IMG/VR virus record: IMGVR_UViG_3300046499_000490
Span: 1-34,149 of that record
Direction: 5' to 3' (one strand)
Length of the DNA stretch: 34,149 bases
DNA from: a virus
Shown here: piece by piece, positions 27,448-33,760 of the stretch
How the letters are laid out: the number at the start of each line of letters is the position of its first letter
Position numbering within the stretch: the first letter of the stretch is position 1
Program-made: the position numbers and the translations under genes
Notes under the pieces: model-generated
What the model was told of the DNA's origin: nothing
The model's database searches: none
Seen by the model: the letters and a program-made list of their open reading frames with translations, nothing else

Positions 27448-28200
27448 TCAGGCGGCTGCGTCGGGTCGCCTGAATCCCATCGATTCGGCCCGTTTCCGGG
27501 CGCGTGTCTGAACGTCGTCCTTGCTGGCCTGCGGGCGGGGTCCACCGCCGGCAGGTGCGCCACCGGGAGCCGGGGGAAGATTGCTGGGCTGCGCGGCGAC
27601 CTTGGCGCCAAACAGTTCGGGGCGGCGCTCCTTCAGCTTCTCGGCGGCCTCACGGACGACCTTCTCGTCGGCGTCGTCCGCGACGCGCAGCAACGCGGCC
27701 GCATCCTCCAGGTCGTCGCCGGTGGCGCCCAGACCCACGAGAACAGCACGCCGGCCAGCGTCCCGTTCGCGGGCAATAGCAGAGGCCTCCCGGGTGGCCA
27801 GCTCCTGCTCGCGGCGGTCCAGTTCCTCCTGCCGCTTCTGGTCCTCAGTCTTCTTCGCCTCTTCGGCCTGGCGGGCGGCAGCGATGAATGCCTTGGCGTC
27901 GTCGACGTTGGAGAAGCCGTGTTCGGCGGCGAACTCCTCGAGGGCCTTGCGGGCTCCAGCGCGTTCGCCCTGGGACTTCTCCTTGGCGGCGATCCGGTCC
28001 AGGTCTTCCTGGCTGAACTCCTTGACCGGTCCGGGCGGCGGGCCGGGCTTCGGCGGGTCGACGGGCGCCGCGGCGGGTGGCGTGGCTGGGGCGCCGCCGT
28101 CGTTGTAGAAGACGGCGTGGGCGAGCGGGCCGGCGTACGGGTGCGTCCACCCGTGGCCGGTGGCGGTACGGGCGGGGCGGGGCTGCGCGGGGCGACGCAT
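27448..28200 (-). CDS. Capsid scaffolding protein
   Basis: A 250-residue protein from ATG 28200, with GGGAGGA nine bases upstream. An in-frame GTG at 28266 overlaps the portal stop, but a 14-bp repeat that is intergenic at two other loci falls between the two starts, so I prefer 28200. The N-terminal third is Pro/Ala-rich. A long charged coiled coil follows (FSQEDLDRIAAKEKSQGER to ELDRREQELATREASAI), then a Pro/Gly-rich stretch and a basic end (ARKRAESMGFRRPD). Such architecture, between portal and decoration/capsid genes, is typical of siphovirus scaffolds that are removed on maturation. Confidence 0.82.
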   Translation of the reverse strand: MRRPAQPRPARTATGHGWTHPYAGPLAHAVFYNDGGAPATPPAAAPVDPPKPGPPPGPVKEFSQEDLDRIAAKEKSQGERAGARKALEEFAAEHGFSNVDDAKAFIAAARQAEEAKKTEDQKRQEELDRREQELATREASAIARERDAGRRAVLVGLGATGDDLEDAAALLRVADDADEKVVREAAEKLKERRPELFGAKVAAQPSNLPPAPGGAPAGGGPRPQASKDDVQTRARKRAESMGFRRPDAAA

Positions 28201-28226: not shown

Positions 28227-28240
28227 CAGGCCCCGCGCCT
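28227..28240 (-). repeat. Start-associated repeat, copy A (scaffold)
   Basis: Minus strand AGGCGCGGGGCCTG, identical to copies at 30171-30184 and 32731-32744. It ends ten bases before the GGGAGGA ribosome binding site of the scaffold gene. Confidence 0.8.
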
Positions 28241-28262
28241 AGATCCAAGTTGAGCACAGATG

Positions 28263-30155
28263 TCACGGCGTGTTCCCCCCGCTCCCCTGCTGCCCCTGCG
28301 GGTCGGTGTTCAGGGCAGGGTCGCCGACGGCTGCCGGAAGCCCGGGCAGGGTCGGCTCGGGCGGTGTGGGGTCTGGGTTGAGGTCGATACCGAGGAAGTT
28401 TCCGACTGCGCCGGTGTCCCCGGTGGCGTCGGCCAGGGCGCGGGCCTTCTCGAACTGGCGGGCCTGAATGCGGTCGATCTCGTCGGCGGCGTCCTCGATG
28501 GGGAACCCGGCCTCCATGAGCATTTTGACCGCAGTCTCCAGGGACAGCACGCCTCCGGCGACTCCGGTGGTGACCTGCTCGAGGACGGCGGCCTTGTCGG
28601 TGGGCGTGTACGGGCCGAACACCAGCTGCGCGGGCATAGGCGTGATACCGGCCCAGTCGGGATGCTGGCCGGCGATGTGGAGGCGCTGGGCGAACTTCAG
28701 CAGCAGGGCGTACTTGTGGGCGCGGGCCAGCCGCATCGCGCCGATCAGGGAGTCCAGCGGGCCCAGGGACAGCTGCATGGCGTACCCGGAGGGAACCTTC
28801 GACGGGTCCAGGGTGCCCAGGGACACGGCGGGCAGGCGGGCGTTGGCGGAGGCCCGGTCGGCGAGGTCGTGGACGTGCTCGCGCAGCTCCCGCAGGGCGG
28901 GGCTGGTGTCGATGGTGGTGAGACGGCCGTTCTCGCCCATGCGGAACACGGCACCTGGGGCGACGTTGTAGGCCTGTCGGGCATCGGTGATACCGGAGAT
29001 GCCAATCATCGGTATTCCGGTGGTGGCGGAGGCGCGGGCGGAGTCGGTGTCGGCTCCCTGGAGGTCGTCGAACACCTGCAACACCTTGGCCAGGGACGGC
29101 TTCCCCCAGTGCTCCTCCGCGTCCGGAACGGTGTTGGGGACGTGGATGACCGGCACGAAGTCGATGAGAAGGTCGAGGTGGTCGAGGACTTCGCCGTCGG
29201 AGCGGGTCGCGAACGCCGCCTTCTCCATGGGGAGGTCGTCGACGTCGTGCCCGGCCTTCAGGTCACCGATCTCCCAGGTCGCGTCGGTGAGATAGCAGGT
29301 AAGGGTGGAGGGGGCGTCGTTCCACGGGTACTGGCGGGTGACCGTACCGGTGTCCGCGTTAAGGACGTCGCCCTGGCCCAAGACCGGAACGGCTTCCCCA
29401 TCGGGTCCTTCGGTGGTCAGCACCGCCCGCACCGGGCGCCCACCGCCGTCGACACCGGTAGAGGTGGCCGCGCCGATCGGGGCGAGCTCGAAAGTCACGC
29501 GCCGCAGACGGGGCTTGAGGCCCTTCTTCACGTCCTCGGGGAGCTCCCACGCAAAGTGCAGCCGGGTGGGGAACTCGCCGCCGTCGTCGTCCTCACCGAT
29601 GACCGGGAAGTAGAAGCCCGGGTCGATGGCGCGGACGGTGGCGCGTTGCTTGGCCGGGTCCCACGCCATCCGGTAGACGCCATCCCCCAGGGAGACGGCC
29701 TTACGTTCGGTCTGCTGGATCCTCATGGGCAGCAGCTCGGTCTCTGCCCACTCCCGCAGCAGATCCTCCACGTGCCCGGCAGCCTGCGTCTCGGGGGACG
29801 GGTCGCCCGCCCCGTCGTGCTCCGCGCCAGGGACGACGATGTGCTGCTCACGGCCCAACACGTTCGCCAAGAGCGCCTCGATGAACATCGCCGGGTCGCC
29901 GAATTCTCTGCGGTCCCGGGCCGCTTCACCGTCCAGGAACACGGCCAGTTCGGCGGCCTGGTTGTTGTCGTAGGCGGCGAGCAGCTTGTACGCGGCGAGG
30001 CGGCGTTCGTCGGCGGCCGGCACCCATGAGGCATGCGCCTCGGGGAACGCACGCCGGTGGGGCATGCCGCGGGTGGGGTCGCTGAAGACGGGCTTGTAGT
30101 TCAGCCAGCTCCACCCGTCGATGACGAGTCGGCGGCAGCCAGCAATGAGGCCCAC
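28263..30155 (-). CDS. Portal protein
   Basis: A 630-residue protein from GTG 30155 with GGAGGG four bases upstream. The N-terminal part (GWSWLNYKPVFSDPTRGMP, ADERRLAAYKLLAAYDNNQ) and the central WDPAKQRATVRAIDPGFYFPV, DFVPVIHVPNTVP and GKPSLAKVLQVFDDLQGA segments fit phage portals. The dodecameric ring at one vertex carries DNA passage and binds the terminase. The C-terminus has a helical EEAGFPIEDAADEIDRI-like region and a Pro/Gly-rich tail. It follows the nuclease gene and precedes the scaffold, with the 14-bp repeat upstream of its start. Confidence 0.88.
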   Translation of the reverse strand: MGLIAGCRRLVIDGWSWLNYKPVFSDPTRGMPHRRAFPEAHASWVPAADERRLAAYKLLAAYDNNQAAELAVFLDGEAARDRREFGDPAMFIEALLANVLGREQHIVVPGAEHDGAGDPSPETQAAGHVEDLLREWAETELLPMRIQQTERKAVSLGDGVYRMAWDPAKQRATVRAIDPGFYFPVIGEDDDGGEFPTRLHFAWELPEDVKKGLKPRLRRVTFELAPIGAATSTGVDGGGRPVRAVLTTEGPDGEAVPVLGQGDVLNADTGTVTRQYPWNDAPSTLTCYLTDATWEIGDLKAGHDVDDLPMEKAAFATRSDGEVLDHLDLLIDFVPVIHVPNTVPDAEEHWGKPSLAKVLQVFDDLQGADTDSARASATTGIPMIGISGITDARQAYNVAPGAVFRMGENGRLTTIDTSPALRELREHVHDLADRASANARLPAVSLGTLDPSKVPSGYAMQLSLGPLDSLIGAMRLARAHKYALLLKFAQRLHIAGQHPDWAGITPMPAQLVFGPYTPTDKAAVLEQVTTGVAGGVLSLETAVKMLMEAGFPIEDAADEIDRIQARQFEKARALADATGDTGAVGNFLGIDLNPDPTPPEPTLPGLPAAVGDPALNTDPQGQQGSGGNTP

Positions 30156-30170
30156 AGTTCCCTCCGTCTT

Positions 30171-30184
30171 CAGGCCCCGCGCCT
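30171..30184 (-). repeat. Start-associated repeat, copy B (portal)
   Basis: Minus strand AGGCGCGGGGCCTG in the 34-base gap between nuclease and portal genes, ending five bases before the GGAGGG ribosome binding site of the portal gene. Confidence 0.8.
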
Positions 30185-30189
30185 AACGA

Positions 30190-30570
30190 TCAGAGTACGG
30201 GCTGGGCGGGGTCGGCTTCCCCCGGCTGTGCGGGCAGGAGACGCTTGCCGCCGTCGTAGGGGACGGCGTGGCCGTCGGTGATGAGGTCGGCGTTCAGGGT
30301 GCGGGCGCCCGCGCTGATGGTTCCGAGCATCCTTCCGAACTTCTCGTGCTTGTCCTTCACGGTGCGCAGGGTGAGGGCGGGTCCGTTCTGGGCGAGCCAC
30401 TGGGTGGTGTACGCGGTGGCGTTGGCGCCAGCCAGGGTGCCGTGCTCGGGGCAGTTCACGCCGACCAGGCGGATCCGTTGGCGAATGTGGACGTCAAAGC
30501 CCAAGTCCGCGATCACGTCGACAGTGTCGCCGTCGACGACCCGCTCGGCGCGTGCGGAGTACTCGTACAC
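30190..30570 (-). CDS. Thermonuclease-like (SNase fold) protein
   Basis: A 126-residue protein starting at GTG 30570 with GGAG seven bases upstream. It aligns by eye to staphylococcal nuclease: VVDGDT gives Asp15 (SNase Asp21), Arg34 in RIRLVGV (Arg35), Glu42 in NCPE (Glu43) and Arg80 in FGRMLG (Arg87). The calcium ligand Asp40 is replaced by Asn39 and Thr41 by Cys40. No signal peptide is present, so it acts in the cytoplasm. Its position between large terminase and portal suggests a packaging-associated nuclease or host DNA degradation. Activity is probable but the Asn substitution could reduce it. Confidence 0.85.
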   Translation of the reverse strand: MYEYSARAERVVDGDTVDVIADLGFDVHIRQRIRLVGVNCPEHGTLAGANATAYTTQWLAQNGPALTLRTVKDKHEKFGRMLGTISAGARTLNADLITDGHAVPYDGGKRLLPAQPGEADPAQPVL

Positions 30571-30585
30571 GGTGTTCTCCAGGGG

Positions 30586-32163
30586 TTATCGGCGCCCGGC
30601 CAGGCGCTGGTCGGTGTAGTTGGACGTGCCGAGGCCCTGCGTGGCGGGGTCGGCGAGTTCGGTGAGGGCGTGGACGGCGGCGTCCATACGGTCCGGGGAG
30701 TCCATTCCGGGCAGCCAGGTGACCATCTGGCCCTCGAGCTCTACGTGCTCGCCGACGTGGTGGACCTTGCCCTGGCGGTACAGCTGAGCGATGGGTTCGG
30801 CACGGAGCCGTTTTCCCTGTTTGGCGTGGACTTCGATGATTGCGGGCATCAGTAGGCCCTTGGTCTGGCCTTCGCGTTGGAGTTCCGTCCATGCCTGGGT
30901 GACGATCTGCCGGGCCATGTCGCCGCCGAAGTTGTTCTCCACGATGATCGCGTCGGCCTGGCGTTCGATGGCGAGCAGGCAGACTTCGGTTCCCCAGGTG
31001 TCGGCGCCCATGGTGCGGGAGCGGTCGTCCAGTACGTAGAGGTGGCCGTCGCGGTCGCGGGCGGCGCAGACGAGGCCGACTTCGTCGTTGCGGAGGGAGT
31101 CGCCGCCGGCGTGGTCAACGGCGACGACGACCCGGGTGGGGGTGATGCCGGGCCAGGCTTCGGGCTTGATTCGGTTGCTGGTGATCCACGCCCATTTCCA
31201 CACGCCGCCTTCGAGGGGGCGCGGTTTCTGCTGGTACATCGAGTACCAGATGCGCTCTCCGAGGGTCTCGCGTGTGTCGGCGAGGTCGGCTTCGTCGTAC
31301 TGGGAAGGCCAGAGCGCTTCGCCGATCTGCCGGCCGAGGGGGTCGTCGGGGCTGTCGGCGATGGCGGGGAGGTCGATCTGGATCCAGCGGTGCGATTCGT
31401 TTTGCAGGAGCCTGCCGGACAGGTCGTCTTCGTGCCAGCGGGTGTTGATCAGGATGATGGAGGCGCCGGGGGCGCGGCGGGTGTAGAAGACGGACCGGTA
31501 CCAGTCGTAGACGCGGTCGCGTTGGGCGGGGCTTCCGGAGTCGTCGTTGCCTTTGAATGGGTCGTCGATGATGCCGAGGTTGAAGCCCTTGCCGGTGAGG
31601 CCGCCTCCGACGCCGGCGGTGACCATGCCGCCGCGGACGGACGACCCGCGGGGCTGCTCGAGGTCGAATCGGTTTGCAGCGTGTGAGGCGGGGTTGAGGC
31701 GGATGCCGAGGGCGGGCGCGTACTCCTTCAGCTGGTCGCGCACCCAGCGGCCGTGGTCGTCTGCGAGTTCCGCACCGTAGGAGGCGATCATGACGCGGTG
31801 GGTGGGGTTGCGACGCAGGTACCACAAGGGGCCCCAGCGGGAGGCGCGCTGGGACTTCCCGTGCCGGGGCGGGCAGGTCAGCATGACCTGCAGTTGTTCG
31901 CCGTTCGCGATCCGCTTGAACGCCTGGTCGATCATCCGTAGGTGCGGTGCCTGTAGCTCCCGGCCTTCCGTGAGGACGGCGGCCAGCCCCCCGGGGGACC
32001 GGTCCATCGTCATCTGCTGCTCTTCGTACATGAGGCGCGCGCGTACCTCGGGGGCTGCCTGTCGGGCGAGGTGCTTGCGTTCGGCGAAGGGCAGGGAGCG
32101 GTAGTGGTCGATCAGGCGTTGTTCTGCGACCTCCCGCTCATCGACGTCAAGCAGTGTTGTCAC
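30586..32163 (-). CDS. terL: Terminase large subunit
   Basis: A 525-residue packaging motor from GTG 32163, overlapping the small subunit gene by 17 bases. ATPase: Walker A CPPRHGKS (97-104), Walker B LGIIDDP (196-202), and a coupling-motif-like INTRWHEDD stretch (about 239-247). Nuclease: Asp350 (VVAVDHAGG), Glu409 (IIVENNFGG) and Asp494 (PDRMDAAVHAL), the RNase H-like triad. All catalytic residues are present, so it should be functional in cutting and translocating phage DNA. The family resembles the terminase-6-like large subunits of actinophages. Confidence 0.95.
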   Translation of the reverse strand: MTTLLDVDEREVAEQRLIDHYRSLPFAERKHLARQAAPEVRARLMYEEQQMTMDRSPGGLAAVLTEGRELQAPHLRMIDQAFKRIANGEQLQVMLTCPPRHGKSQRASRWGPLWYLRRNPTHRVMIASYGAELADDHGRWVRDQLKEYAPALGIRLNPASHAANRFDLEQPRGSSVRGGMVTAGVGGGLTGKGFNLGIIDDPFKGNDDSGSPAQRDRVYDWYRSVFYTRRAPGASIILINTRWHEDDLSGRLLQNESHRWIQIDLPAIADSPDDPLGRQIGEALWPSQYDEADLADTRETLGERIWYSMYQQKPRPLEGGVWKWAWITSNRIKPEAWPGITPTRVVVAVDHAGGDSLRNDEVGLVCAARDRDGHLYVLDDRSRTMGADTWGTEVCLLAIERQADAIIVENNFGGDMARQIVTQAWTELQREGQTKGLLMPAIIEVHAKQGKRLRAEPIAQLYRQGKVHHVGEHVELEGQMVTWLPGMDSPDRMDAAVHALTELADPATQGLGTSNYTDQRLAGRR

Positions 32164-32701
32164 GTGCGTCGTCCGCCGTGCCTGCCGGGTCTTCGTTTTC
32201 CTCGGTGTCGAGGTCTGCGTCCGCTTCCCGGGCCATGCCGAAGAGCTTCTCCAGCTCGTCGAGGGAGCCGGTGGACAGTGGGATGGGGCCGCCGCCGGGG
32301 CCGGAGAGCTCGTTCTTCACGGGCATGTCGAGGCCGTTGAGCTTGGCGCGCCGGTCCATGAGGCGCAGGACGGTGTCGACGGCCCGCATGTCCAGTTCGT
32401 GGCCGACGACTTCGCCTTCTTTGTCGAAGACCGGGCTGGGCTTGGTGGCGCGCGGCCATGCGGCCTCGAGGAGCGCGTCCAGACGTTCGTTCTCCTGCTG
32501 CCGGTACACGCCCACCTCGGCGGCTTCCTCGTCCCGGTGGATCCTTAGGGCGCGGACGAGGTCCTTGCGGGCACTTCCCGTGTCCTTGTAGCCGAGGGCG
32601 AGGATGCGCTCGTCGTCGTAGCGGACGCCTTCACGGCGCAGTTTGAGGAGTTTCGTGCGGCGGACGGTGGTCTCGTCTTGCTTCAGCTTGGACGCTGCCA
32701 T
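32147..32701 (-). CDS. Terminase small subunit
   Basis: A 184-residue protein from ATG 32701, with GGGAG ten bases upstream. The frame remains open far upstream but that part is antisense to the lipoprotein gene and rejected. Residues 1-60 are basic and helical (TTVRRTKLLKLRREGVRYDD, ARKDLVRALRIHR), the likely DNA-recognition part. The central VDTVLRLMDRRAKLNGLDMP segment is a hallmark of actinophage small terminases I know, and the C-terminus is acidic. It recognises the packaging site, which is usually nearby; the gap 32702-32813 is one candidate location. Confidence 0.82.
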   Translation of the reverse strand: MAASKLKQDETTVRRTKLLKLRREGVRYDDERILALGYKDTGSARKDLVRALRIHRDEEAAEVGVYRQQENERLDALLEAAWPRATKPSPVFDKEGEVVGHELDMRAVDTVLRLMDRRAKLNGLDMPVKNELSGPGGGPIPLSTGSLDELEKLFGMAREADADLDTEENEDPAGTADDARDNTA

Positions 32702-32730
32702 GGCGGTGGGGCTCCCGCTTGTGTGGTTGT

Positions 32731-32744
32731 CAGGCCCCGCGCCT
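32731..32744 (-). repeat. Start-associated repeat, copy C (small terminase)
   Basis: Minus strand AGGCGCGGGGCCTG, ending 14 bases before the GGGAG ribosome binding site of the small terminase. It lies in the divergent gap shared with the lipoprotein gene. In this copy the internal inverted arms extend to five bases (CAGGC/GCCTG). Confidence 0.8.
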
Positions 32745-32813
32745 GTCACAGATGATCGCCGATTTCCGTCTTTCTGTTCCCCTCGCCCGGGTTGTGGCTG
32801 CACGATGCGCGCT

Positions 32814-33528: not shown

Positions 33529-33576
33529 GACGGCCCAGCGACCGTCACTGGGGGTGGAGGCGGTCGCTGGGCCGTC
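33529..33576 (+). terminator. Strong terminator after the lipoprotein gene
   Basis: GACGGCCCAGCGACCG (33529-33544) pairs perfectly with CGGTCGCTGGGCCGTC (33561-33576), a 16-bp stem with a 16-base loop. It begins ten bases after the TAG and would also stop leftward transcripts from the nuclease gene. Confidence 0.85.
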
Positions 33577-33635
33577 TTGCTCGGGTGCCAGGGGGGAAGG
33601 CGTTCCCGAGCGGTCTGGGGCGTGGTTCGGGGGTG

Positions 33636-33702
33636 TGCACGGCCCGGCGGCCGCGTAGGACGGGCGCGGGGACACCAGATCCGGTTGGACGCGGGCCGTG
33701 CA
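33636..33702. repeat. 11-bp inverted repeat spanning 67 bases
   Basis: TGCACGGCCCG (33636-33646) and CGGGCCGTGCA (33692-33702) are perfect inverted copies 45 bases apart, in the noncoding stretch 33577-33760. The interior is GC-rich with further short complementary runs. It could be a small structured RNA, a protein-binding site or a packaging-related site. Nothing else is recognised in this stretch. Confidence 0.5.
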
Positions 33703-33760
33703 GTTCTGATGGTGGGGTACAGGGCGCGGTTTGTCTGGGCTGCCTTCCCCCGGCGGCTGT

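Follow-up and report, generated by a model that had tools for sequence, protein, structure and literature searches.

The closest described systems for the locus reported here are the CI RNA of satellite phage P4 and the C4 RNA of phages P1 and P7. The latter is a structured RNA encoded by the phage, and its loops are complementary to the surroundings of a ribosome binding site (RBS) (PMC12197685). Short repeats upstream of phage gene starts are represented by the start-associated sequences of the cluster K mycobacteriophages (consensus GGGATAGGAGCCC, which includes AGGAG), which occur in one orientation 3-7 bp from the start of non-structural genes, and for which an RNA or a protein partner was left open (PMC3203893). 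Here, a 34 kb IMG/VR virus record (IMGVR_UViG_3300046499_000490, the whole of which is called the window) was analyzed together with its relatives, the Streptomyces phage-plasmids such as ZL12 and pSAM1 and related prophages. Its late (minus) strand carries an identical 14-mer, AGGCGCGGGGCCTG, ahead of the genes for small terminase (TerS), portal, and scaffold. We lean slightly toward a reading in which this repeat is where transcription from three late promoters begins, and the tip of a phage antisense small RNA (sRNA) pairs with the 5' ends of those mRNAs. Such an sRNA, predicted here from sequence, would resemble the C4 RNA as a structured phage RNA with a loop complementary to sequence near an RBS. 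It differs in that C4 acts on an antirepressor operon, whereas the matched leaders here are those of TerS, portal, and scaffold, at their 5' ends; the candidate also differs from C4 in sequence and gave no Rfam match to it.

Conservation of the Repeat at Head-Gene Starts

The three exact copies of AGGCGCGGGGCCTG are located at 32744-32731 (TerS), 30184-30171 (portal), and 28240-28227 (scaffold), all on the minus strand, and no further copy exists in the window at one mismatch, the next best having two. An SD-like (Shine-Dalgarno-like) GGGAG/GGAGG follows the repeat after 14, 5, and 10 bases, and the start codon after 29, 15, and 26 bases, for TerS, portal, and scaffold, respectively. These positions agree with an earlier description of this DNA made by inspection of its letters (the sequence-only reading), which had reported three identical same-strand copies 5-14 bases from the RBS. 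The scaffold start at 28200 that it preferred is upheld by the leader and ATGCGTCGCCCC, both conserved among relatives.

The large terminase and the portal served as queries to gather approximately 190 related loci. Within these 2.8 Mb, the late strand carries 227 of the 232 exact copies of the 14-mer and the other strand 5, and 24 relatives of 83-152 kb contained 1-6 copies each when one mismatch was allowed (two records of 140-150 kb had one weak copy each). This strand bias and the small number of copies per relative indicate that the occurrence is more than chance. A search at one mismatch had been proposed with the sequence-only reading, and it showed that the repeat is retained: in most of the 24 large records the late-strand copies are the TerS, portal, and scaffold sites, and a few records have extra scattered copies. 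More distant relatives conserve just GGCGYGGGG, the nine bases that follow the A, and alter the 3' half of the 14-mer from GCC to GGC, GCT, or GAC.

Large terminase, portal, scaffold, and capsid were clearly assigned in the window. The portal gene (28263-30155, minus, GTG start) matched phrog_64 (E 2e-10), and the scaffold gene (27448-28200, minus, ATG at 28200) matched phrog_2303 (E 2e-24). The gene behind the 32744 copy (32147-32701, minus, 184 aa) falls in PHROG 645, labeled 'RNase E', and is called a small terminase candidate by its position and a helix-turn-helix (HTH) seen in relatives.

Layout of the Late Promoters

Upstream of the 14-mer, a -10-like box and GGGGAAC are conserved as well. 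The three sites of the window show the same layout, namely GGGGAA(C/G), 18 bases, a six-base -10 box, 8 bases, and GGCGCGGGG. When the sites were aligned on the repeat, a second box, GGGGGAAC, was common to all three site classes and ended approximately 31 bases upstream of it. A GGGnAAC box ending 30-32 bases before the repeat was found at 68 of the 73 nonredundant TerS sites (0 in a control stretch put to the same test), at 68 of the 108 portal sites (3 in the control), and at 35 of the 51 scaffold sites (3 in the control); many of the portal sites without the box at this distance belong to distant prophages. The -10-like boxes differ by class, being TACnCT for portal, GATCAT for TerS, and an extended TGn..CT for scaffold. 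The TerS promoter of the window thus consists of GGGGAAC (32776-32782, minus) and GATCAT (32752-32757, minus), with the core GGCGCGGGG at 32743-32735. The portal promoter carries TACTCT (30192-30197, minus; TACnCT is the consensus of 62 nonredundant relatives) and, by box alignment, GGGGGAAG (30216-30223, minus), which lies within the end of the upstream nuclease gene. The scaffold promoter carries the extended box TGC-TCAACT (28248-28256, minus), conserved as TGTGCT..CTT in relatives, and GGGGGGAAC (28272-28280, minus), again placed by box alignment.

In distant chromosomal Streptomyces prophages, whose terminase is mostly 55-61% identical, GGGGAAC is not conserved. They retain TANNCT-N6-9-GGCGYGGGG, with 80 matches, all of them on the late strand; permuted octamers gave 0-1 matches, save two that overlap the motif. 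A role of the element in the host was set aside when the composite pattern in 14 host genomes was seen to fall mostly inside prophages, and this also answers the frequency check on host DNA suggested by the sequence-only reading.

Promoters of the Streptomyces housekeeping sigma factor have TANNNT at -10 and TTGAC at -35. The TANNCT boxes at portal and in the distant prophages are alike, but TTGAC is missing from the late promoters described here, where GGGGAAC takes its place in phage-plasmids and neither is present in the distant prophages. Unlike the housekeeping promoters, they also carry a conserved +1 element that is hardly present in host genomes. A phage sigma factor was considered and rejected: no Sigma70_r2 was found in the 24 relatives, and region 4-like HTH matches were few and scattered, TerS being among them.

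As in a family of late promoters, the -10 box stands at a fixed distance from the repeat on one strand. A layout in which the repeat forms the downstream, +1 end of a composite late promoter is well supported by comparison. The -10 spacing would place the RNA 5' end on the repeat, so that the three head mRNAs (predicted 5' ends within 32731-32744, 30171-30184, and 28227-28240, minus) probably begin at or near GGCGCGGGG. The sequence-only reading had likened the 14-mer to start-associated sequences, with which it does share the short form and single orientation upstream of phage gene starts. That likeness breaks down on closer comparison, as AGGCGCGGGGCCTG is different in sequence, contains no SD, lies 15-29 bp rather than 3-7 bp from the start, serves structural head genes instead of non-structural ones, and is tied to a -10 box. 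What stands of that reading is a conserved, oriented regulatory element at head-gene starts, and our result is compatible with two of its guesses, a late regulator and a role in translation.

Several side observations concern these sites. Several kb upstream of TerS, three chromosomal prophages (L134 at ~6134, L141 at ~5629, and L128 at ~890) have an extra late-type promoter with GGCGYGGGGCTGGAG ahead of a GTG start. The TerS leader GCGGGAGCCCCACCGCCATG (32725-32699, minus) shows strong conservation among the phage-plasmids and has the potential to pair with GGGGC in the repeat. Codons 3-6 of the scaffold gene (GCCCCGCGC; 28200-28175, minus) and GCGCGGGGC, located in the repeat approximately 40 bases upstream, are exact reverse complements of each other, and most phage-plasmid relatives keep this as CGCCCC(G/A)CG, perhaps via protein sequence alone. 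Pairing of the scaffold leader with these codons was rejected as evidence since the protein could explain the conservation.

Candidate Small RNA Upstream of the Terminase Genes

When all GGCGYGGG sites were listed, one more conserved copy, the fourth, appeared upstream of TerS on the opposite strand. Its late-strand sequence is GGTGTCCCCGCGCC, which is flanked by inverted arms and belongs to an unannotated structured RNA candidate running from 33701 to approximately 33530 (minus), about 0.9 kb upstream of the TerS repeat. Hairpin 1 (33636-33702, minus), with the stem TGCACGGCCCG/CGGGCCGTGCA, scored 56.9 bits with covariance model R1, and its apex is GGUGU-CCCC-GCGCC. The nine apical bases CCCCGCGCC (33663-33671, minus) are complementary to the leader core GGCGCGGGG at all three leaders, near the RBS of each gene. 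Hairpin 2 (33579-33611, minus; GCTCGGG/CCCGAGC) and the terminator-like hairpin 3 (33530-33575, minus; ACGGCCCAGCGACC/GGTCGCTGGGCCGT) both have C-rich loops, and similar hairpins were seen in relatives. A putative promoter precedes them, composed of CAGACA (33737-33732), 17 bases, and CACCAT (33714-33709), all on the minus strand. Relatives conserve it as (C)AGACA-N17-CACNNT at a distance of 7 bases from the stem; farther up stands a GGGGGAA box. That box is GGGGGAAG in the window (33744-33751, minus), and 53 of 60 relatives have a G-rich box at most 22 bases upstream.

Rfam contains no family matching the candidate. The only match, a weak one, was to the 6C RNA of Actinobacteria (RF01066), which likewise has consecutive hairpins with C-rich loops, but 24.3 bits is below the gathering cut-off of 47, the match covers hairpins 2-3 only, and there was no hit in nine relatives. 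The candidate further differs from 6C RNA in its conserved tip CCCCGCGCC on a long covarying stem and in its link to phage late genes.

The sequences of the arms vary among relatives while their complementarity is kept (GCACGGCCCGG, GTGTCGGCCCGG, TTGAGCGGCCTGG, GCCTGGGCGGGG, and others). In 40 nonredundant sequences, two-sided changes with pairing maintained were found in 8 of 16 pairs; 29 compensating cells were counted against 4.3 in shuffles, none of the 500 shuffles reached this number, and the signal was lost when the partners were slid. The mean folding z was -3.9. U.G pairs in the apical stem suggest that the RNA has the late-strand sequence, and the covariance model agrees: one record scored 63.5 bits on the late strand against 35.1 on the reverse, and 20 of 24 records matched at E<1e-4 with the late strand outscoring the reverse. 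Of the 69 loci with sufficient flank, 60 had the hairpin pattern, at 150-1107 bases upstream from the TerS element; the opposite strand gave 0 in 2.5 Mb. Nearly all phage-plasmid relatives possess the hairpin. When 393 Streptomyces genomes were scanned, 8 of the 9 model matches had a TerS element on the same strand within 1.5 kb, and about half of these matches came from outside the training set. On pSAM1 (NZ_CP012383.1) of S. ambofaciens ATCC 23877, with the GGCGCGGGG of its TerS leader at about 2590-2575, the hairpin occupies an unannotated gap immediately ahead of the terminase genes. Both the existence of a conserved RNA hairpin and its strand are well supported by comparison.

In many chromosomal prophages, a hairpin with a different stem (CGGTGCCTGGCGGGT...) exposes CCCCCGCGCC in its loop, and the loop core CCCC(C)GCGCC is shared. 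Their TerS elements often carry the fifth G that matches the CCCCCGCGCC loop. A search with the loop core in these prophages gave 27 matches against 1-6 for permuted cores, and 16 on the opposite strand. The core variant GGCGUGGGG retains pairing through G.U wobble.

Proposed Mechanism and Alternatives

Based on these features, an sRNA of approximately 175 nt would be transcribed from its own promoter upstream of, and on the same strand as, the terminase genes. The apex of its first hairpin would expose CCCCGCGCC, and pairing with the three late mRNA 5' ends would start at the CCCC loop and zip into the weak, U.G-rich apical stem. This pairing may block ribosome loading at the SD located 5-14 bases downstream, or cause early termination, so that the head genes would be held down in the plasmid or prophage state. 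Expression of the sRNA, its pairing, and the sign of the effect are inferred from the comparison. That an undescribed sRNA controls head morphogenesis in Streptomyces phage-plasmids and related prophages, through an identical 5' sequence on three late mRNAs, is in our estimate evenly balanced between true and false; nothing on this element was found in the open-access literature.

Several observations weigh against antisense pairing by the hairpin loop. A clear hairpin is missing in the loci L040 and L118 and in the records G003, G021, and G023. The duplex energy does not single out the phage-plasmid leaders, as 1-2.7% of genome windows equal them at this GC content, and it was abandoned as a target finder for this lack of specificity. 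CCTG after the core is conserved in phage-plasmids, yet unpaired with the loop. Co-change of loop and target length is weak (about two events), and eight phage-plasmid loci combine C5 loops with G4 targets. Moreover, the sequences of the alignment were collected by means of the 9-base loop core, and the invariance of the loop therein is partly by construction; covariation of the stem is less affected by this, though the arm ends came from predicted folds.

The main rival is a DNA-binding protein, a phage repressor or activator that would bind GGCGCGGGG at +1 of each late promoter, with the hairpin copy as a fourth operator and RNA pairing irrelevant. We regard it as unlikely, though worth serious attention, for +1 is a common position for an operator, a double-stranded site would appear on the other strand as well, and the conserved GGGGAAC box may also be a protein site. 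It does not account for a fourth copy that tops a hairpin with covarying stems, the U.G pairs of which make sense only in RNA. Nor did the proteins common to both groups provide a candidate regulator except TerS in the genomes compared, and, as noted above, no sigma region 2 was found in the 24 relatives. A shared phage regulator was also sought by comparing the record G007 with three chromosomal prophages, and was rejected: the proteins in common are those of the head and tail, and a single further gene is shared with G025, a Streptomyces olivoreticuli chromosome.

It is improbable that the repeat works in cis, forming a short 5' hairpin (AGGC-GCGGG-GCCT) that sets mRNA stability or translation. 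The 14-mer is indeed an imperfect palindrome, and GGC/GCC is retained in 130 of 138 phage-plasmid sites, but covariation is absent there (103 paired against 102 expected), GCC is gone in 34 of 76 distant sites, and the leaders folded no better than shuffled sequences. With neither covariation nor retention in distant relatives, the cis hairpin was rejected.

Recognition of the repeat by TerS as a packaging site appears very improbable. TerS is an HTH protein common to both groups, and the elements lie near the terminase genes; the copies nevertheless occur at the portal and scaffold promoters, even where the portal is far from the large terminase, and their spacing to the -10 boxes is fixed. 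In G025 the two genes are 23 kb apart (3584482 and 3607577), each with its own late element. The packaging mark proposed in the sequence-only reading accordingly found no support.

Least probable of all, conserved gene-boundary sequences that aid head-module exchange by recombination would fit the uncoupled portal and terminase identities of some relatives, but leave the -10 spacing, the strand bias, the nine-base distant core, and the complementary hairpin unexplained. Head-module exchange itself is illustrated by the locus L056, where the portal is 93% and the large terminase 63% identical to those of the window.

Implications for Streptomyces Phage-Plasmids

Published RNA-seq of S. ambofaciens ATCC 23877 covers pSAM1, and in one of the conditions the plasmid is strongly expressed (PMC11302927, PMC5427115). 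Because pSAM1 carries the hairpin, the main prediction of antisense pairing by a phage sRNA is testable on existing data. The late-promoter signature marks head modules in unannotated sequence, and the finding may bear on the conservation of small start-linked repeats in other actinophages. How late genes are silenced and switched on in Streptomyces phage-plasmids is largely open, and a conserved sRNA with three matched leaders constitutes a directly testable switch. If the proposed pairing is true, a single RNA would govern the entire head module during lysogeny.
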